DNA from: Chromohalobacter canadensis
GTDB lineage: Bacteria > Pseudomonadota > Gammaproteobacteria > Pseudomonadales > Halomonadaceae
Reading direction: 5' to 3'
Assembly (NCBI RefSeq): GCF_034479555.1
Contig: NZ_CP140151.1
Location: 3,348,001 to 3,412,000, forward strand
DNA: 64,000 bases
Shown here: piece after piece, positions 1-18,516 of the stretch
Numbering within the stretch: position 1 is the stretch's first letter
Layout: each line of letters starts with the position of its first letter
Position numbers and translations under genes: made by a program
The notes under the pieces: generated by a model
The model's database searches: none
What the model saw: the letters and a program-made list of their open reading frames with translations, nothing else
What the model was told of the DNA's origin: nothing

Positions 1-759
1 GGTTTCCATCGACTCGCGCAGGTCGAAGGTCGTCTGATCGATCTGCGCCTGGGTGTCCTCGCGCAGACGCATCATGTGATCGCCCAGGGCGTTGAGCTGG
101 TGCCCCAGCGTTGCCAGTTCACGCGCGCCACGAGGCGCAAGGCGGGCGCTGTAATCGCCGCCGTTGAGGCGTTCGAGCAGGTCGATCTGATGTTGTAGCG
201 GCCTGGTCAAACGGCGGCTCAGCGGGTAGACGACCAAGAACAGCAGCAGGCCCAGCACCAATCCGGCCATGCCGTGGCCGGCTAGTTGGCGATAAAAAGC
301 CAGCGTCAGCGCCGTGGTCCCCAGATCGACATCGAGCCAGTAGGCTGTGGCCTCGTCCGGCGCATCCTGATCCGTATTGACCGTGCCCAAGGGTTGCAGC
401 CAGCGCCAGCGTTGCGCGTTCTCCTGCAAGGTGCCCTGGGCCGGCATCGGCCGGTCGGGGGCGTGCTGCGTTTCGCCGAGGCTGAGCACGGGGTCGCCAT
501 CTTCGTCGCGAATGCTGACGGCGTCGATCTCATCGATATCCAGCAGGCGTTGGGCCAGTTGGCGGAGATGTTCGTCACGCGCTTCATCGAGCGCCAGCGT
601 AAAAGCCGGCGCCAGCGTCGTGGTGACATCGGCGATGCGCGTGGCGAGTGCCTGACGCGCCTCCTGGCGTCCGGCATAGATGTCATACGTCCCATAGGCG
701 ATCCCCACGCCCAGTGGCAGACCCAGCAATAAAAGCAGCAAGCGCAGCCTTAGTGACAT
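1..759 (-). CDS. gacS: GacS/BarA-type hybrid sensor histidine kinase, N-terminal part (cut by window edge)
   Basis: The 253 visible codons encode a basic start and a first membrane segment (LLLLLLGLPLGVGIAYG), a periplasmic stretch of about 130 residues, a second membrane segment (LVLGLLLFLVVYP) and then a HAMP linker (SRRLTRPL) leading into a coiled coil. The kinase core would lie outside the window. The start ATG follows GGGAGCGG. Divergent placement next to cysM-rlmD-relA-mazG matches gacS/barA of pseudomonads and halomonads. In those organisms the GacS/GacA pair activates transcription of CsrA-sequestering small RNAs; a candidate of that kind lies at 16.9 kb. The identity rests on architecture and synteny, because no catalytic motif is visible. 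Confidence 0.8.
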   Translation of the reverse strand, partial: MSLRLRLLLLLLGLPLGVGIAYGTYDIYAGRQEARQALATRIADVTTTLAPAFTLALDEARDEHLRQLAQRLLDIDEIDAVSIRDEDGDPVLSLGETQHAPDRPMPAQGTLQENAQRWRWLQPLGTVNTDQDAPDEATAYWLDVDLGTTALTLAFYRQLAGHGMAGLVLGLLLFLVVYPLSRRLTRPLQHQIDLLERLNGGDYSARLAPRGARELATLGHQLNALGDHMMRLREDTQAQIDQTTFDLRESMET

Positions 760-907
760 TCCGACCGCTCCCTTCGTGTTCATCATCGGCAGTATGCCAC
801 ACTCAGTGGGTTCGCCTGTCGCTGACGGGCCGTCCCGGATATAATTGGACGCATTGAATAGTCGACGAATGCGTTTTGATGCGACGCGCATCGCAAAGGA
901 TGAACCC

Positions 908-1804
908 ATGCAATTTCCCACTCTCGCGGATGTGGTCGGCCACACGCCGCTGGTCCGTTTGACCCGGCTGCAGGCAGGGCGTAACAACACGTTATTGGCC
1001 AAGCTCGAGGGCAACAATCCGGCGGGCTCGGTCAAGGACCGCCCGGCGCTCTCGATGCTTGGAGAAGCCGAGGCACGTGGCGAGATCAGCCCCGGCGATA
1101 CCCTGATCGAAGCAACCTCGGGCAACACCGGCATCGCACTGGCCATGGCGGCGGCGATCAAGGGATACCGCATGACCTTGATCATGCCCGAGAGCGCTTC
1201 CAGCGAGCGCAAGCAGGCGATGGCCGCTTATGGCGCGACGTTGATCGAGGTCAGTAAGGATGCGGGCATGGAAGGCGCGCGCGACCTGGCGGACGAGATG
1301 ATCGCGCGTGGCGAGGGTAAGCCGCTCAACCAGTTCGCCAATACCGACAATCCCTTGTCTCACTATCGCACCACCGGGCCGGAGCTCTGGGAGCAGACCG
1401 GCGGGCAAATTACCCATTTCGTCAGCTCGATGGGCACCACCGGCACCATCATGGGTGTCTCGCAGTATCTCAAGGAACGCCGCGACGACATTCAGATTGT
1501 CGGCCTGCAACCCGCCGATGGCGCCAGTATCGCCGGCATTCGACGCTGGCCGCATGAGTACTTGCCGCGCATTTTCGATGCCTCGCGGGTCGACGTCACG
1601 TTGGATATCGGCCAGCAGGAAGCCGAGGAGCATATGCGTTTGCTCGCCCGCGAAGAAGGCATTCTGGCAGGTGTCTCCTCCGGCGGCGCGCTGGCGGGAG
1701 CGTTGCGCATCGCCGAGCAGGTGGAAAACGCGGTGATCGTGTTCATCGTCTGCGATCGTGGCGACCGTTACCTGTCCACCGGCCTTTTCGCCCCGGAGCG
1801 CTAA
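908..1804 (+). CDS. cysM: cysteine synthase B (O-acetylserine sulfhydrylase B)
   Basis: The 298-residue product is a fold-type II PLP enzyme that makes cysteine from O-acetylserine and sulfide; CysM enzymes can also use thiosulfate. The PLP lysine lies in NPAGSVKDR near residue 43, the substrate loop is EATSGNTGIA, and the phosphate-binding glycine loop is SSMGTTGTI. A longer reading begins at 845, but the ATG at 908 follows AAAGGAT and gives the usual family length. rlmD begins one base after the stop codon, so the two are probably cotranscribed. Confidence 0.95.
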   Translation: MQFPTLADVVGHTPLVRLTRLQAGRNNTLLAKLEGNNPAGSVKDRPALSMLGEAEARGEISPGDTLIEATSGNTGIALAMAAAIKGYRMTLIMPESASSERKQAMAAYGATLIEVSKDAGMEGARDLADEMIARGEGKPLNQFANTDNPLSHYRTTGPELWEQTGGQITHFVSSMGTTGTIMGVSQYLKERRDDIQIVGLQPADGASIAGIRRWPHEYLPRIFDASRVDVTLDIGQQEAEEHMRLLAREEGILAGVSSGGALAGALRIAEQVENAVIVFIVCDRGDRYLSTGLFAPER

Positions 1805-1805
1805 G

Positions 1806-3233
1806 ATGGCGATGCTGGGCAAACGGCGCCCACCGCGCGCCGCCACGGGTCGAGTGCGTCGGGAAAGCGGGGCACATGCGCCACCCCGTGGCGAGGCGGC
1901 AGATACGTTGACCATCGAGCGCTTGGCGCATGATGGGCGCGGCGTGGCACGCGACCCGCATGGCAAGACGGTGTTCGTCGATCAGGCGCTCCCCGGCGAG
2001 CGTGTGCGCATCGCCGTGCATCGTCAGCGCAAGCGCTTCGACGAGGCGCATGTCGTCGAGTGTCTCGAACCTTCCCCACAGCGGGTGACACCGCCTTGCA
2101 TGTATTACGGGCGTTGCGGCGGTTGTGACTTGCAGCACTTGGCACTCGAGGAGCAGCGCACTCATAAGCAGCGTACGCTCGAAGAATTGTTCACGCGTCA
2201 GGGGCTCGACCTCCCCGCGATGCAACGCTTGGTCGGCGAGGGGCTGGGCTATCGGCGTCGTGCGCGCCTGGGCGTCAAATGCGATGCCGAGGGAACGCCG
2301 CATCTCGGGTTTCGCGCCCGGGGCAGTGAACACTTGGTCGACATCGATCACTGCATGGTGCTCGAGCCCATACTGGCGGACTTGATCGCCCCGCTGCGCG
2401 AATGCCTGACCACGCTGGAGGCGCCGCGACGCGTCGGTCACATCGAACTGCTCGCCACGGCCGAAGGCGCCTGTGTGGTGATACGTCAGTTGCGCGATGT
2501 CCCCGGGGACGAAACCCGCTGGCAACGTTTCGCCGCCGAACGCGACATCACGCTGATCTGGCAGGTGGGGCGCGATTCGCCCACGCAACGCTGGCTGCAC
2601 GCGCCGTTTGGCGAGACGCTGCATGTCACGCTGGCGCTGGACGACACCACCTTGCAACTAGGATGCGCGCCGGGCGATTTCCTACAAATCAACGCCGAGG
2701 TTAATGCCCAACTAGTGCGCACGGCGCTACGCTGGCTTGCACCTCAAGGGCACGAACGGGTGCTCGACCTGTTCGCTGGCGTAGGTAATTTCACCTTGGC
2801 GTTATCGCCGCATGTGGCCGCGATCAGCGGCATTGAAGGCAGCCCGGCGATGGTTGAGCGCCTTGCCGACAACGCGCGCCGTGCCGGCTTGCACCATGTC
2901 GAGGCACATCAGGCCGATCTGGCCACGCGCATGCCCGATGTCGAAAATGTCGATTGGGTCGTGCTCGACCCACCGCGTGGCGGTGCCGAAGCGCTGTGCC
3001 GGGGGCTCGCCGAGCATCCGGTGGAAAAGGTGCTGTATGTTTCGTGCGATCCTGCTGCGCTGGCGCGGGATACGGCACATCTTGTGCAAGGTGGCTACCG
3101 CATCGAACGTGCCGCGGTGGTCGATATGTTTCCGCATACCGCGCACTTGGAGTCCATGCTGTTACTGACCCGCGAGGTATCGCGCGGTCGGTCCATGTCC
3201 GCAGAAAGGGAAGATCATGGTCAAGGTCCGTGA
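1806..3233 (+). CDS. rlmD: 23S rRNA (uracil-1939-C5) methyltransferase
   Basis: RlmD (RumA) methylates U1939 of 23S rRNA using SAM. An N-terminal TRAM-like segment (about residues 28-85) precedes the iron-sulfur cluster cysteines in CMYYGRCGGCD, a central RNA-binding part, and a Rossmann methyltransferase domain with DLFAGVGNFTL. The nucleophile motif is VLYVSCDP and the preceding DPPRGG is intact. The length of 475 residues is slightly above the E. coli enzyme because of a basic N-terminal extension; a start two codons later (1812) is equally possible. The 3' end overlaps relA by 17 bases, suggesting coupled translation. Confidence 0.95.
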   Translation: MAMLGKRRPPRAATGRVRRESGAHAPPRGEAADTLTIERLAHDGRGVARDPHGKTVFVDQALPGERVRIAVHRQRKRFDEAHVVECLEPSPQRVTPPCMYYGRCGGCDLQHLALEEQRTHKQRTLEELFTRQGLDLPAMQRLVGEGLGYRRRARLGVKCDAEGTPHLGFRARGSEHLVDIDHCMVLEPILADLIAPLRECLTTLEAPRRVGHIELLATAEGACVVIRQLRDVPGDETRWQRFAAERDITLIWQVGRDSPTQRWLHAPFGETLHVTLALDDTTLQLGCAPGDFLQINAEVNAQLVRTALRWLAPQGHERVLDLFAGVGNFTLALSPHVAAISGIEGSPAMVERLADNARRAGLHHVEAHQADLATRMPDVENVDWVVLDPPRGGAEALCRGLAEHPVEKVLYVSCDPAALARDTAHLVQGGYRIERAAVVDMFPHTAHLESMLLLTREVSRGRSMSAEREDHGQGP

Positions 3234-5469
3234 AGACCAACCGTTGACGCCGGCCGGCGAGGTCGATATCGCATTGTGGTTGAAGCGCCTCCAGGATGAT
3301 GTCGTGCTGCGCGATATCGAGGAGATGCGCCAGGCCTGCGAACTTGCCCGGCATCTGGCCTATAACGCCGAGAAACCTCACCACAACTGGGCCGAACCGG
3401 CCTCTAGCTTCCGCACCGGTCTGGAAATGGCCGATATTCTCGGCGAACTCAAGCTCGATCAGTCGATTCTCGAGGCGGCGGTACTGTACCGCGTGGTACG
3501 CGAGGGGTTGATCACGCTGGAGGCCATCGAAAAGCGCTTCGGCGCGGAAGTGGCTTCGCTGATCGACGGCGTGTTGCACATGGCTGCGATCAGCCAACTG
3601 CAGGCGCCACGCCAGGGGTTATCGCAGCACAACCAGCAGGAAAATCTGCGCAAGATGCTGGTGGCGATGGTCGACGACGTACGCGTGGCCTTGATCAAGA
3701 TTGCCGAACGTACCTGTGCGCTGCGCATGGTGCGCGACGCGCCGCGCGACAAGCGTCTGCGGGTGGCGCGCGAGGTCTTCGATATCTACGCGCCGCTGGC
3801 ACACCGCCTGGGTATCGGGCAGCTCAAGTGGGAGCTCGAGGACCTGTCGTTCCGCTATCTGCAAGAGAGCGACTATAAGGCCATCGCCAAGCAGCTGGCC
3901 GAGAAACGCCTCGACCGCGACCGCTACATCCATGACGTGGTGGAAACCATCAAGGGGCTGCTCGATCAGCAAGGCATCAAGCAATACGATGTCGACGGCC
4001 GTGCCAAGCATATCTACTCGATCTGGCGCAAAATGCAGCGCAAGCACATCGACTTCTCGCAGGTCTACGACGTGCGCGCGGTGCGCATTCTGGTGCCGGA
4101 AGTCGCCGACTGCTACACCGCGCTGGGCATCGTGCATTCGAGCTGGCATCACGTGCCGCATGAATTCGACGATTACATCGCCAACCCCAAGCGCAATGGC
4201 TACCAATCGCTGCACACGGCGGTGATCGGCCCCGAGAACAAGGTGCTGGAGATCCAGATCCGTACCTTCTCCATGCATGAGGAGGCCGAGCTCGGTGTCT
4301 GTGCCCACTGGCGTTACAAGGGGCACGATGTCGACTCGAAAAGCCGTAGCTACGAGGAGAAGATCGCCTGGCTGCGCCAGGTGCTCGAATGGCAGGAGGA
4401 AGTCGGCGAGCTGGGCGACCTGCGCGAGGGCCTTTCCAGCGACGTGGCGCCGGATCGTATCTACGTCTTCACCCCGGATGGCCATGTCATCGACATGCCC
4501 AAGATCGCCACGCCCATCGACTTCGCCTACCGCGTGCATACCGAGGTTGGTCATCTGTGTCGGGGCGCCAAGGTCGATGGCCGCATCGTACCGTTGACGT
4601 ATCAGCTCGAGACCGGGCAGCAGGTCGAGATTCTCACCGCCACCAAGGGCGGGCCGAGCCGCGACTGGCTCAATCCCAACCTGGGTTTCGTCAAGACCTC
4701 GCGGGCGCGGGCCAAGATCCAGGCATGGTTCAAGTACCAGGCGCGCAGTCAGAACATCGAGGAAGGTCGCACCCTGTTCGAGAAGGCGTTTCGGCGCTTG
4801 GACATCGAGGGCGTAGATTTCGACGCCTTGGCGCAAGCCGTCAATTACCAGACGGTCGACGACATGTATGCCGCTATCGGCGGCGGTGACCTGCGCATCG
4901 GACAGGTGTTGCACCAAGCGCAGCAACTTTTCGGCGATACCGACGATCAGGAGCAGCTCGACCGCCTGTTGGCCAAGCCCGGTCGCTCGTCCAAAGCGGC
5001 GGTGGACGACATCACCGTGCTGGGCGTCGGTAATCTCAAGACCTCGATGGCCAATTGCTGCCACCCGGTACCCGGCGATCAGATCGTCGGCTATATCACC
5101 CAAGGGCGTGGTGTGACCATCCATCGCCAGGATTGCCCCAATATCCTGCAACTACGTGCCGAGGAGCCGCGCCGCATCGTCGATGTCGAGTGGGGCAATG
5201 CCAGCGCTCAGTACCCGGTGGATATCGAGATCGAAGCCTGGGACCGTTCGGGATTGCTGCGTGATGTCACGCATATTCTCACCAGTGATCGCATCAATGT
5301 GCTGTCGGTCAATACGCTGACCGATAAGCACGATAACCTGGCGCGTATGAAGATCACCCTGGAAGTCGATGGCCTCGAGGCCTTGGAGCGCATCTTTTCG
5401 CGAATTCAGCAGCTCCCCAACGTCATCGACGTCAAGCGGCTGCGCAGTGGAGGAGGCAAGACGGCATGA
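3217..5469 (+). CDS. relA: GTP pyrophosphokinase RelA ((p)ppGpp synthetase I)
   Basis: RelA makes (p)ppGpp on ribosomes carrying uncharged tRNA. The order is an HD-like pseudo-hydrolase domain (about 30-190), the synthetase domain with YDVRAVRILV and NGYQSLHTAV (about 250-350), TGS (about 410-470, RIYVFTPDG), a linker containing a Cys-His pair (MANCCHPVPGD), and a C-terminal ACT domain (about 670-745). In the hydrolase domain the usual ADRLHN-type motif reads AERTCA, so hydrolysis is expected to be lost, as is typical of RelA rather than SpoT. The 750-residue length is normal. The stop overlaps the mazG start (ATGA). Confidence 0.96.
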   Translation: MVKVREDQPLTPAGEVDIALWLKRLQDDVVLRDIEEMRQACELARHLAYNAEKPHHNWAEPASSFRTGLEMADILGELKLDQSILEAAVLYRVVREGLITLEAIEKRFGAEVASLIDGVLHMAAISQLQAPRQGLSQHNQQENLRKMLVAMVDDVRVALIKIAERTCALRMVRDAPRDKRLRVAREVFDIYAPLAHRLGIGQLKWELEDLSFRYLQESDYKAIAKQLAEKRLDRDRYIHDVVETIKGLLDQQGIKQYDVDGRAKHIYSIWRKMQRKHIDFSQVYDVRAVRILVPEVADCYTALGIVHSSWHHVPHEFDDYIANPKRNGYQSLHTAVIGPENKVLEIQIRTFSMHEEAELGVCAHWRYKGHDVDSKSRSYEEKIAWLRQVLEWQEEVGELGDLREGLSSDVAPDRIYVFTPDGHVIDMPKIATPIDFAYRVHTEVGHLCRGAKVDGRIVPLTYQLETGQQVEILTATKGGPSRDWLNPNLGFVKTSRARAKIQAWFKYQARSQNIEEGRTLFEKAFRRLDIEGVDFDALAQAVNYQTVDDMYAAIGGGDLRIGQVLHQAQQLFGDTDDQEQLDRLLAKPGRSSKAAVDDITVLGVGNLKTSMANCCHPVPGDQIVGYITQGRGVTIHRQDCPNILQLRAEEPRRIVDVEWGNASAQYPVDIEIEAWDRSGLLRDVTHILTSDRINVLSVNTLTDKHDNLARMKITLEVDGLEALERIFSRIQQLPNVIDVKRLRSGGGKTA

Positions 5470-6308
5470 GAGAGGCATCCGCGCGTTACGGGCTCGACGA
5501 TCTTTTGAGGTTGATGGCGGTGTTGCGAGACACCGATCAAGGTTGCCCCTGGGACGTCAAGCAGGACTGGGACAGCATCGTCCCGCACACCCTGGAAGAA
5601 GCCTACGAGGTGGCCGATGCCATCGAGCGCCGCGCCTTCGACGAGCTGCCCGGCGAGTTGGGCGATTTACTGTTTCAGGTCGTCTACTACAGCCAGTTTG
5701 CGCGAGAAGAAGGGCGCTTCGATTTTCACGATGTCGTCGACGTGCTGACCGCCAAGATGGTGGCGCGCCATCCGCATGTTTTCCCCGAAGGAACGCTTGA
5801 ATCGCGGCGTCCGGTCGGTGTGTCGGCCGACGAGGTCGAGACGGCGGGCGTCAAGGCTCGCTGGGAGGCCCTCAAGGCGCAGGAGCGCGAGACGCGCCAG
5901 GCGGTATCGGTACTCGATGATGTGCCGCGCACGCTGCCCGCTCTGTCGCGTGGCGCCAAGCTCTCCAAACGCGCCGCGCGGGTCGGCTTCGAGTGGCCCG
6001 ATGCCCAAGGCGTGTATGACAAGATCCGCGAGGAGCTGGCGGAAGTCGAGGAAGCCGCGGATCATCAAGATGCCGATCATGTACGCGAGGAAATCGGCGA
6101 CTTGCTGTTCGCCGTCACCAATCTGGCAAGGCGCTTCGATGTCGATCCCGAGCGCGCGCTACGCGAAGCCAACGGCAAGTTCGAGCGCCGCTTTCGTCAT
6201 GTAGAAAGTGCGCTGGCGGAGCGGGGCTATTCTCTCGAGGCCTCCTCCCTCGACGAAATGGAGCGTCACTGGCAAGCCGCCAAGCGCGGCGAAACCTCGG
6301 TGTCCTGA
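5466..6308 (+). CDS. mazG: nucleoside triphosphate pyrophosphohydrolase MazG
   Basis: The 280-residue protein has two MazG all-alpha domains, each with EExxE-type metal sites (TLEEAYEVADA near residue 40 and EELAEVEEAADH near 185). MazG hydrolyses NTPs to NMP and pyrophosphate and in E. coli lowers ppGpp levels under starvation. Its position directly behind relA, with an ATGA overlap, fits that role. The N-terminal signature CPWDVKQ is standard. No mazEF genes lie nearby. Confidence 0.95.
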   Translation: MREASARYGLDDLLRLMAVLRDTDQGCPWDVKQDWDSIVPHTLEEAYEVADAIERRAFDELPGELGDLLFQVVYYSQFAREEGRFDFHDVVDVLTAKMVARHPHVFPEGTLESRRPVGVSADEVETAGVKARWEALKAQERETRQAVSVLDDVPRTLPALSRGAKLSKRAARVGFEWPDAQGVYDKIREELAEVEEAADHQDADHVREEIGDLLFAVTNLARRFDVDPERALREANGKFERRFRHVESALAERGYSLEASSLDEMERHWQAAKRGETSVS

Positions 6309-16098: not shown

Positions 16099-16558
16099 TT
16101 TTTTTCTCCGTTTCCTGCTTAGGGTCGTGAGTCGTCGGATGGGCTGGGTAGCCCTTGCGAACTGACGCCAGGGAAACGCTGAATCGCTTGCTCTAGATGA
16201 GCACACAACGCCATGCCATGCACGAAGACGCGCCCCAGAAAACGAGGGCGGTTCCCATGCTTCGCGAGCCATGCGTTGGATATGATTCAGGCGTTCCCTT
16301 GATTGCCTTTATTTTCGTTATGAGCAGCATCATACCTAAATCTTGCCGTTACATAAATAGGTGTTATGGAATGGCAGGGGATTCCCCGTATGAGCGCTTA
16401 TGAAGGGCTCTAAAAGCATTTCGCAGGGGGGGGGGCAAACGATCGTGAGATGACGCTGAGCGCTCGATTGACGATAATGCCTCACCAACCCACGCCTGAT
16501 GAACAGAAGGGCGAGTGTGGTGAGGAAGCAAGCAGACAACATGGACAAGGAGAACGAG
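16099..16558. other. intergenic region between porin and small lipoprotein gene
   Basis: Contains the porin 5' leader. A possible minus-strand -10 (TATGAT, read from 16334 down to 16329) with a weak -35 (TTTATG) 17 bases earlier would give a leader of over 200 nt. A run of ten G (16426-16435) lies 123 bp before the lipoprotein start. No coding region is supported. Confidence 0.35.
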
Positions 16559-16759
16559 ATGCGCCAAGTATGGCTAATGGCGATTCTAGTAGGCGGTATC
16601 GGAGCAAGCGTGTCGGCGTGCAGTTACACGCCCGCGCGTATCGACCCCGAGCCCGTTGTTGAAGTCGGTGATGGACACCATGACCACGATGAGCGACATG
16701 AACATGGGCATGGCGGTGATTTCTGTCCGCCCGGACAAGCCAAGAAAGGCAACTGCTGA
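16559..16759 (+). CDS. small histidine-rich lipoprotein, function unknown
   Basis: The 66-residue product has a signal peptide (WLMAILVGGIGASVSAC) with a lipobox ending at Cys21, then a mature part full of His and Asp/Glu (GHHDHDERHEHGHGGD) and two C-terminal cysteines (FCPPGQAKKGNC). The composition suggests metal binding (zinc, copper or nickel) at the envelope. AAGGAG lies nine bases before the chosen ATG; an ATG at 16541 in the same frame is possible but would push the signal peptide inward. I do not recognise a named family. No metal transport gene is adjacent. Confidence 0.65.
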   Translation: MRQVWLMAILVGGIGASVSACSYTPARIDPEPVVEVGDGHHDHDERHEHGHGGDFCPPGQAKKGNC

Positions 16760-16840
16760 AGCGCGATGTATTGTGGGCGGCCATCTAAAGCTCGTTATAG
16801 CAGCTCCCGCGTGGTCGTTTCGTGGTGACCGTTTTCAGCA

Positions 16841-16995
16841 TCATAAAAACGCCATGGTCGGTTATTCCGACCATGGCGTAAGATTCCGCGCTCCTTTGGC
16901 GTCTTCCTGACGCACCGGTGCTTTACCGGTTCCCGTGAGCCTCCTAGCTCAGCATGCTTCCTTAACGCGCTTAACGACAGTGTCCCTTGTCTGAC
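16841..16995 (-). ncRNA. candidate CsrA/RsmA-sequestering small RNA (CsrB/RsmZ type)
   Basis: Read on the minus strand, this non-coding stretch contains eight GGA triplets within about 120 nt, many in ANGGA-like contexts. Two sit in the loops of short perfect stems, the arrangement CsrA/RsmA prefers: TGAGC-TAGGAG-GCTCA (16936-16951) and GCGTC-AGGAA-GACGC (16899-16913). A further stem, GACA/TGTC (16976-16991), exposes AGGGA, and another (ACCGG/CCGGT, 16914-16930) has no GGA. The RNA ends in a 12-bp GC-rich terminator with a GGA in its loop and a T run. In relatives such RNAs are switched on by GacS/GacA and titrate CsrA. The 5' end is approximate; I found no clear GacA box or sigma-70 promoter. 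Confidence 0.72.
16845..16878 (-). terminator. Rho-independent terminator of the candidate sRNA
   Basis: A 12-bp perfect stem, CGCCATGGTCGG/CCGACCATGGCG (16850-16861 and 16867-16878), with a 5-nt loop. On the minus strand it is followed by TTTTTA, so it terminates a leftward transcript although no minus-strand protein gene precedes it. Confidence 0.88.
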
Positions 16996-17069
16996 GACCA
17001 ATGGCCTGCTGAGCCATGCATCGCCACTGCCGCCTATGTGACAATGTCGCGTCACGGATGTGACGTTTT

Positions 17070-17121
17070 CATGGCTGCTTTTGATGGCCGCTTCTAATGG
17101 CCACTTCTAATGGCCACTTCT
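17070..17121. repeat. four imperfect tandem 13-bp repeats
   Basis: Four head-to-tail copies of a 13-mer resembling AATGGCCACTTCT; the last two are identical and the first two carry two to five changes. They lie between the 5' side of the candidate sRNA (about 75 bp away) and the antiporter start (48 bp away), so they could be iterated regulator sites for either. Confidence 0.75.
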
Positions 17122-17169
17122 GTTAATATCCCGCACTTTTGATACAACACACTCAACGGGAACAAGGCA

Positions 17170-18516
17170 ATGAATGCGGTTATTTTGGCCGTTCTGGTCA
17201 TGGTGGGGCTCGCACTAGCGCGAGTATCGGTAGTGTTTGCGCTTATCGTGGGCGCTTTGGTGGGCGGCCTGGTCGGTGGTCTGGGGCTCGAGGACACGCT
17301 GGCTGCGTTCAACGATGGCGTGGGAGGCGGCGCCAAGGTGGCGCTAGCCTACGCAACGCTAGGTGCATTCGCGGTGGCGATTTCACGCTCAGGACTGCCC
17401 GACATGCTGGCGCAACGTCTGATTAGTCTGCTCGGGCACGAGGCATCACACAAACGCCAAAAGGCGGTGAAGTACATACTGCTGGGCGCGCTGCTATTAG
17501 TAGCGATTTCATCGCAAAACTTGATTCCCGTGCATATTGCCTTCATTCCTATCCTCATACCGCCATTGCTCAAGATCATGAATTCGCTGCGTCTTGACCG
17601 CCGCGCGGTGGCCTGCGTTTTGACGTTCGGTTTGACGGCGCCCTATATGTTGTTGCCGGTCGGGTTCGGAGCAATCTTTCTCAACGATATCCTGTTGGCC
17701 AATATCAACTCGGCGGGTGAAGCCGTGGGACTCGAAGTGACGCGTGGCATGGTGCCGCTCGCCATGGGAATTCCTGTTGCTGGCATGGCGCTAGGGCTTT
17801 TGGTAGCTGTTTTCTATTCTTATCGCAAGCCCCGTGATTATGAAACGCGCGATGTCGTGACCAGTAATGTCCCGCATCATTCCGGTGAGGTTAGTCTCCA
17901 CACTCGTGGTTTGGTAATGGCTGTCGTGGCCATCGTCGCGGCCTTGTCTATTCAATTGTATAGCGGCTCGATGATCATGGGCGGTCTCGTCGGTTTTGCC
18001 CTATTGTCGCTGGGTGGCATCTTCAGATGGCGTGAAGCCGATGACCTCTTCACCAGCGGAATGCGCATGATGGCGCTTATTGGCTTCATCATGATTACGG
18101 CGGCGGGGTTTGCCTCGGTCATGCAAGCCACGGGTGAGATCGACACGCTGGTCGAAAACGCCTTTGCCATTATCGGCGATCATCAAGGCCTTGCCGCATT
18201 GATCATGCTGCTGGTCGGCCTGTTCATTACGCTGGGAATCGGCTCGTCGTTCTCGACGATTCCCATCATTGCCGCGATCTATGTCCCACTAGCCGTGCAA
18301 TTCGGCTTCTCGCCCATGGCCACGGTGGCACTGGTAGGCACCGCCGCGGCGTTGGGGGATGCCGGCTCGCCGGCCTCCGACTCGACGTTGGGGCCGACTT
18401 CGGGACTCAACGTCGATCGCCAACACGACCACATCTGGGACTCGGTCGTCCCCACCTTTTTACATTACAACATCCCGCTCATCGTCTTCGGCTGGCTGGC
18501 GGCAATGTGGCTTTAA
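17170..18516 (+). CDS. Na+/H+ antiporter-family membrane protein (COG2056, NhaC-like)
   Basis: The 448-residue polytopic protein has about 11-12 membrane segments. The conserved late motif [15 protein letters not shown] (about residue 395) and the short N terminus are typical of the COG2056 branch of the ion transporter superfamily, annotated either as Na+/H+ antiporters or as histidine-type amino acid transporters. In a halophile a sodium-extruding role is attractive, but the substrate cannot be assigned from sequence. The ATG follows GGAACAAGG. It appears monocistronic. Confidence 0.82.

Follow-up and report, generated by a model that had tools for sequence, protein, structure and literature searches.

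A candidate CsrA-titrating small RNA of Chromohalobacter canadensis, with a Pho-type promoter pattern in most of its homologues

Does the short intergenic stretch at 16841-16995 encode an RNA that titrates CsrA and, if so, which signal would turn it on? An earlier note, made from the letters of the window (the whole 64-kb stretch of DNA analysed here), proposed a CsrB/RsmZ-type regulatory RNA on the minus strand and pointed to a GacS-like kinase in the same window as belonging to the usual activator of such RNAs.

Architecture of the RNA and covariation of its stems

The minus strand of 16841-16995 carries the eight GGA triplets that had been counted in it (first bases 16985, 16961, 16944, 16933, 16907, 16894, 16887 and 16868, the last inside the terminator hairpin). 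GGA counting, which the earlier note had suggested, places this well above background: dinucleotide shuffles of the same stretch contain 4.0 GGA on average and reach at least eight in 15 of 2000 cases. Among segments of similar size from both strands of the 64 kb, taken at a 5-base step and including the overlapping segments of the locus itself, 27 of 25538 have at least eight.

The locus lies between two plus strand ORFs. The one at 16499-16759 encodes a small lipoprotein-like protein (recognised as a lipoprotein by eye; a family search gave no result), and the one at 17170-18516 is a Na+/H+ antiporter gene (Pfam PF03553 and PF13726) that is divergent from the RNA. A run of about 10 G is present at 16420-16440 (plus strand), between the porin-like and the lipoprotein-like genes. 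A minus strand ORF that traverses the RNA locus, an 86-aa frame with a GTG start (16795-17055), was considered as a small protein gene and rejected as implausible because it reads through the terminator. The description of the stretch as non-coding holds.

A 180-nt segment folds with a z-score of -3.3, and 1 of 200 shuffles folds equally well. In sum, the RNA is composed of five hairpins and a 12-bp terminator (Table 1); at the 5' side it may extend as much as about 40 nt beyond the modelled end. Two GGA had been placed in loops of perfect 5-bp stems; both hairpins are real and covary (hairpins 3 and 5, the former in its 5-bp form being TGAGC-UAGGAG-GCUCA). The single GGA assigned to a weaker stem is found in the imperfect hairpin 2, and hairpin 1 adds a fourth GGA-bearing structure to the earlier three. 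The terminator, with its T run, is as described.

Table 1. Coordinates of the RNA and of the elements upstream of it
Feature	Position	Strand	Remark
Candidate Csr/Rsm-type small RNA, modelled extent	16845..16995	minus	model R1 positions 1-151
Hairpin 1, GACA-AGGGACAC-UGUC, GGA in loop	16976..16991	minus	cross-genus conservation highest here
Hairpin 2, imperfect, loop AAGGA	16951..16971	minus	weakest helix, 75.7% of cells paired
Hairpin 3, GAGC-UAGGAG-GCUC, GGA in loop	16937..16950	minus	both-side changes in 4/4 pairs across genera
Single-stranded stretch, one GGA (first base 16933)	16930..16936	minus	
Hairpin 4, CCGGU-AAAGC-ACCGG, without GGA	16915..16929	minus	
Hairpin 5, GCGUC-AGGAA-GACGC, GGA in loop	16899..16913	minus	both-side changes in 5/5 pairs across genera
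Single-stranded spacer, two GGA (first bases 16894, 16887)	16885..16898	minus	
Intrinsic terminator, 12-bp stem and TTTTT	16845..16878	minus	
Site at which 11 bp of the nearest congeners are missing	17021..17038	minus	removes their -10 element TACAAC
Pho-type half-site 3, TGTCAC	17038..17043	minus	in most homologues the counterpart is followed by 10 bp and a -10 element
Pho-type half-site 2, TGACGC (degenerate)	17049..17054	minus	
Pho-type half-site 1, CGTCAC	17060..17065	minus	

Paired substitutions are seen in the stems. Nine congeneric copies show both-side changes at 9 of 37 pairs, with 97.0% of alignment cells pairing; none of 500 shuffles attains the observed value for four of the five covariation measures, and the fifth (further pair types) is attained by 301 of 500. 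For 41 homologues (40 distinct), both-side changes occur at 28 of 37 pairs, 92.3% of cells pair, and the covariation score is 0.353 versus 0.126 in shuffles and at most 0.080 with the partner slid, in an alignment that was fitted to the structure model and is therefore biased in favour of the structure. The best evidence comes from hairpins 3 and 5, where all pairs covary. In hairpin 2 the innermost pair fails to form in 24 of 31 cells, and hairpin 1 changes on both sides at one of its four pairs (A-U to G-C, in 7 rows), with variable bases around its GGA. By a permissive count (4-bp stems, G-U allowed, and the 3' part missing for L070, L071, L072 and L097), each of the 41 RNAs has 2 to 6 GGA-bearing hairpins, and a loop GGA recurs in most. 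Related halomonads have thus kept the GGA loops, a point raised by the earlier note, together with covariation in the stems. Alignment A1 (three distant genera, plain MAFFT) was misaligned mid-length and was left out of the pair counts; alignment A4 replaced A3, six rows of which were reverse-strand or terminator-only matches and were dropped.

Family resemblance and distribution

At the gathering threshold, no Rfam family matches in the 64-kb window. The PrrB_RsmZ model (RF00166) aligns to 16848-16971 over model positions 1-133 with 40.0 bits (E 6.3e-8), so that membership by score fails against the gathering score of 44; the copy of a congener (G002) reaches 40.8 bits. Features of PrrB_RsmZ that the RNA does have are GGA loops on covarying stems and an intrinsic terminator at the 3' end. 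The CsrB model (RF00018) has no match in the genome at E<=10, and RsmY (RF00195) has none at the RNA locus, its 20 genome places being weak (best 21.1 bits versus 57). Rfam comparisons, which had been proposed for this locus, therefore give a sub-threshold resemblance to RsmZ, and nothing for RF00018 or RF00195 at the locus. The assignment to a CsrB/RsmZ type is upheld by the architecture, the full-length RF00166 match and the covariation, less the sub-threshold score.

We conclude that the RNA is very probably a Csr-type sponge. It would work like RsmZ, but is filed neither as a formal RF00166 member nor as a GacA-activated Rsm RNA because its score stays below the gathering value and its upstream regions lack a GacA box above chance (see below).

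Of the nine other genomes of the genus, eight have the RNA by DNA search, at 81-97% identity (Chromohalobacter beijerinckii, C. canadensis, C. nigrandesensis, C. moromii, C. sarecensis, C. marismortui, C. israelensis and C. sp. 11-W); the same search did not find it in the remaining one, G004. A covariance model (R1), built from the nine Chromohalobacter copies, recovers full-length homologues in 41 of 151 genomes of the family and in 9 of 24 genera, with E<=4.5e-7 as the limit. The other 110 genomes have no match at this threshold, with strict filters that may lose weak matches. The genome studied here holds a single copy, as the other four of five R1 matches are its terminator read backwards and three weak ones. 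With RF00166, 41 of 58 relatives have a match at E<=10 and one is over the cut-off, a tally that was not used for the distribution because strict filters missed the window's own copy. A pattern scan gave 16 matches, three of them in Bacteroidota or Lachnospiraceae MAGs.

GacA boxes and Pho-type repeats upstream

The genome encodes one identified CsrA gene and one GacA/UvrY over the curated cut-off. The GacS-like kinase reported at the start of the window is indeed there: a GacS/BarA-like gene, of which only the N-terminal part falls in the window (43.5 bits versus a BarA model cut-off of 890), beside cysM-, rlmD-, relA- and mazG-like ORFs. The order over 1-6308 is gacS/barA-like, cysM, rlmD, relA, mazG, where rlmD and mazG were named by eye and cysM by its general domain.

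The GacA upstream activating sequence, TGTAAG-N6-CTTACA, was taken from excerpts of PMC4950607 and used as a ruler. Over 300 nt upstream of the 41 homologues it scores 7.37/12 versus 7.31 in shuffles, with p<=0.05 in 2 of 41; over 500 nt, the values are 7.63 versus 7.52, with 0 of 41 at p<=0.05 and none above 9. Boxes with at most three mismatches occur at 10 places in the whole window versus 13.4 expected. Genome-wide, 29 places have at most two mismatches versus 60 for a backward control, so the box is not enriched, and none of the 29 precedes the window RNA. Only one of them combines a site outside long frames with GGA-dense downstream sequence (11 GGA in 160 nt).

This place marks a second GGA-rich candidate RNA, here RNA B, between eno and fdxA-mutS (G000:C1, about 2228060-2228230; locus L175:1501-1860 = G000:C1:2227872-2228231), with the GacA box TGTAAGATAATTCCTACA at 2227872. 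It is present in all 10 genomes of the genus, G004 included, and has 10-12 GGA in 185 nt, the box forming a conserved island at about -170. In each of the ten genomes, the GacA ruler gives 10-11/12 upstream of RNA B, a score equalled by 0 or 1 of 200 shuffles, and the Pho ruler (described below) gives 11-12 there, at chance (equalled by 30-129 of 200 shuffles). RNA B is near-invariant within the genus, so covariation is not usable, and the Csr-type models of Rfam have no match to it at E<=10. At 4 of 13 other RF00166-match loci, the GacA ruler also reaches 10-11. Outside the genus, G012 has an RF00166-like RNA (39 bits) with 11/12 GacA matches that adjoins fdxA and mutS. A further genus has two RF00166-like places about 0.8 kb apart (G030:C1:2912210 and 2912991, L035), with 10/12 GacA matches before the second. 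In one 510-nt stretch (L048, G035), a GacA box of 11/12 and a Pho ruler score of 16 occur together; the Pho-like part may be inside a long GGA-rich RNA.

Inspection of 30 homologue upstreams revealed a different arrangement: a constant distance separates TGTCAY from a -10-like hexamer, and more half-sites follow 11 and 22 bp upstream, as in a Pho box. We scored it with a Pho ruler (TGTCAY-N5-TGTCAY-N10-TATAAT; 18 positions, 180 nt upstream, 300 shuffles each). The mean for the 41 upstreams is 13.80/18 versus 9.92 in shuffles and 10.95 on the reverse strands, which themselves exceed the shuffles, and p<=0.05 is reached in 35 of 41. The ruler was chosen after inspection of 30 of the 41 upstreams; 9 of the 11 fetched after the pattern was formed pass it. 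Scores of at least 13 are found in 33 of 41 true upstreams versus 2 of 932 other segments of the same loci, mostly coding, and in 0 of 10 RNA B upstreams, which provide an intergenic control. By genus, the passes are g1 8/9, g14 0/1, g11 7/7, g19 4/8, g21 2/2, g20 10/10, g12 1/1, g5 2/2 and g8 1/1; the six failures are the window's own locus (L070), L079, and four of genus g19 (L085, L093, L139, L140). Next to the proximal TGTCAY the half-site is often degenerate, and the array continues with a third one. At 8 of 41 loci (L070, L080, L082, L083, L084, L090, L091, L095), another half-site is found closer to the RNA, 11 or 22 bp downstream of the best-scoring register, which leaves the precise register uncertain. 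Upstream of the repeats in the window, tandem GGCCAT-type repeats occupy 17070-17125, and their copy number varies among congeners (by eye).

The ruler was calibrated on phoB promoters of the family, which score 15-17 in 15 of 15 genomes and 17 in the genome studied here (TGTCAT-gaagt-TGTCAC-attagcgcgt-TGTAAT). For L151 and L160, where the ORF start was misplaced (9, 10), the 250 nt before the match were rescored (16, 17). Promoters of PstS were rejected as a calibration set, since only 4 of 22 genomes have a PstS (TIGR00975) over the cut-off and their promoters are mixed (ruler 10-14), and phoB was used instead; the sole strong site on that side (17/18) precedes a weak PstS-like match, L125. 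All 15 genomes also encode a PhoB that scores above the cut-off of its model.

Sequence patterns upstream of the homologues thus do not bear out GacS/GacA as the direct activator of the window RNA: for the GacA box they score like shuffles, and most have a Pho-type promoter. The box for which the earlier note suggested a search is carried by RNA B.

The window's own copy is an exception to the promoter pattern. It scores only 12/18, equalled by 24 of 300 shuffles, because the -10 element seen in the congeners is lost with the 11 deleted bp; at the ruler's -10 distance there is only CATAGG. The deletion (also noted at 17021-17043) is one repeat period long and brings half-sites 1 and 2 to the old distance.

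Proposed regulation, alternatives and known systems

CsrA/RsmA proteins recognise GGA presented in the loops of hairpins. Because the genome has one CsrA and GGA loops bind CsrA, titration of CsrA is the simplest reading. From the architecture, covariation, distribution and promoter pattern we predict that the RNA is transcribed as an untranslated molecule of about 150 nt, the several GGA-loop hairpins of which would bind CsrA dimers; sequestration of CsrA would release the mRNAs that it controls. Phosphorylated PhoB would bind the 11-bp-spaced TGTCA half-sites, which would take the place of a -35 element and end 10 bp short of the -10. CsrA control would then be relieved directly when phosphate is limiting, and this would be the physiological role of the RNA. 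We judge it likely that the RNA is a CsrA sponge and, jointly, that across the family its promoter is of the Pho type and regulated by PhoB. It seems somewhat likely that the Pho regulon of nine genera includes a CsrA-sponge RNA while a second sponge, at eno-fdxA, answers to GacS/GacA in Chromohalobacter. The two sponges would have split inputs, PhoB for the window RNA and GacA for RNA B, and share one target protein.

Several other explanations were weighed. If the RNA were a conventional RsmZ/CsrB-type RNA on which GacS/GacA acts via a degenerate or distant GacA site, its resemblance to RF00166 would follow, as would the presence of a GacS/BarA-like gene in the window and of GacA in the genome. 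However, the 300 and 500 nt upstreams of 41 homologues look like shuffles to a ruler that picks up the GacA box of RNA B throughout the genus (10/10 genomes), and 0 of 29 box places in the genome studied here precede the RNA, which makes this explanation improbable. The repeats could also be read by one or more other response regulators of the OmpR family, which can use spaced direct repeats; the frequent degeneracy of the half-site beside the proximal one, the third half-site that extends the array, and further PhoB-like proteins in these genomes (about 205-229 bits, under the PhoB cut-off of 296) are compatible with such a regulator. We nevertheless consider a sponge under such control unlikely, given that half-site, 11-bp period and 10-bp distance to the -10 are those of the phoB promoters in 15 of 15 family genomes.

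The repeats lie between the RNA and the antiporter gene (17170, plus strand) in the window and at 19 of 41 loci, and might serve that gene instead. Against this, 19 of 22 loci without an adjoining antiporter match pass the Pho ruler (17 of 19 without L093, L096 and L097, which have possible antiporter-like sequence), as do 16 of 19 loci with it, and the spacing to the -10 runs in the direction of the RNA. The flanks available for this comparison were 0.4-1.5 kb; L093 has a 49-residue match, and L096 and L097 an antiporter-like start by eye. Because passes are similar with and without this neighbour, the Pho site travels with the RNA, and service to the antiporter is very unlikely indeed. At L075 (G003, C. 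moromii), no antiporter match adjoins the RNA, the upstream sequence resembles a transposase end by eye, and Pho-type repeats are kept. Finally, in the species of the window the RNA may be a decaying, little-expressed copy with a damaged promoter, as loss of the congeners' -10 and the presence of CATAGG alone at the ruler distance would suggest. This remains compatible with Pho control at the level of the family. We regard decay as possible, although doubtful, since the RNA is intact and 97% identical to two congeners, its helices are kept, and deletion of a single repeat period resets half-sites 1 and 2 to the old distance.

For Chromohalobacter the analysis yields two candidate RNAs of this kind, one of which has homologues in nine genera. 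In excerpts of a review, the table gives the RNA partner of Gac/CsrA in Halomonas anticariensis as Unknown (PMC7366521). If true, a direct Pho-box input would place decisions controlled by CsrA under the influence of phosphate status at the RNA level, and two sponges with one target protein would merge phosphate and Gac signals. The split promoters make this division between phosphate and Gac easy to test.

Phosphate and Csr are discussed together in other contexts, as judged from excerpts of the papers cited here. In E. coli, phosphate starvation and CsrB are discussed as linked via ppGpp and BarA/UvrY, not PhoB (PMC10191379), and a ChIP-seq table lists a PhoB site at csrA without marked expression change (PMC10294691). 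The excerpted text on PhoB ChIP-seq in P. aeruginosa does not mention rsmY/rsmZ as PhoB targets (PMC6610081). CsrB and Pho transcripts, mostly of Vibrio, rose together in a marine bloom, with no direct link drawn in the part seen of that source (PMC3840354). Among the open-licence literature matches listed, as excerpted, there is no report of a Pho-box-driven Csr RNA, nor is there one among the matches listed for Halomonas or Chromohalobacter with GacA, CsrA, CsrB or RsmZ.

Among known systems, RsmZ/PrrB of Pseudomonas (RF00166) shares with the window RNA the order of GGA hairpins, a single-stranded AGGGA spacer and an intrinsic terminator, and the covariance match is full-length at 40 bits. 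Unlike RsmZ, it is below the gathering score, lacks a GacA box, has a Pho-type promoter and is not beside fdxA. Pseudomonas rsmZ adjoins fdxA and rpoS, and in Chromohalobacter it is RNA B, not the window RNA, that occupies the fdxA-side place. CsrB and CsrC of Escherichia and Vibrio are GGA-rich titration RNAs with a terminator. The window RNA is likewise GGA-rich and terminated, but the CsrB model is much longer, at 356 positions, and a search of the genome with RF00018 gives no match at E<=10. According to excerpts of PMC6262261, the activator of CsrB/CsrC is UvrY/VarA, and csrB copies of Vibrio tasmaniensis are differentially regulated. RsmW of P. aeruginosa is similar in that it, too, is of the Csr type and has no good GacA site close by, whereas the regulators predicted for its promoter are RhlR, Fur and IHF, not PhoB (PMC4950607, in excerpt). 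The excerpted text and table of PMC10294691 describe PhoB sites of E. coli as direct repeats with strict spacing to the core promoter, the phoA site being TGTCATAAAGTTGTCACG. The repeats upstream of the RNA resemble such Pho box promoters (phoA, phoB) in the 11-bp spacing of their TGTCA half-sites and in the 10-bp distance to the -10; they differ in that the middle half-site is often degenerate, a third one is present upstream, and the product driven here would be a regulatory RNA.
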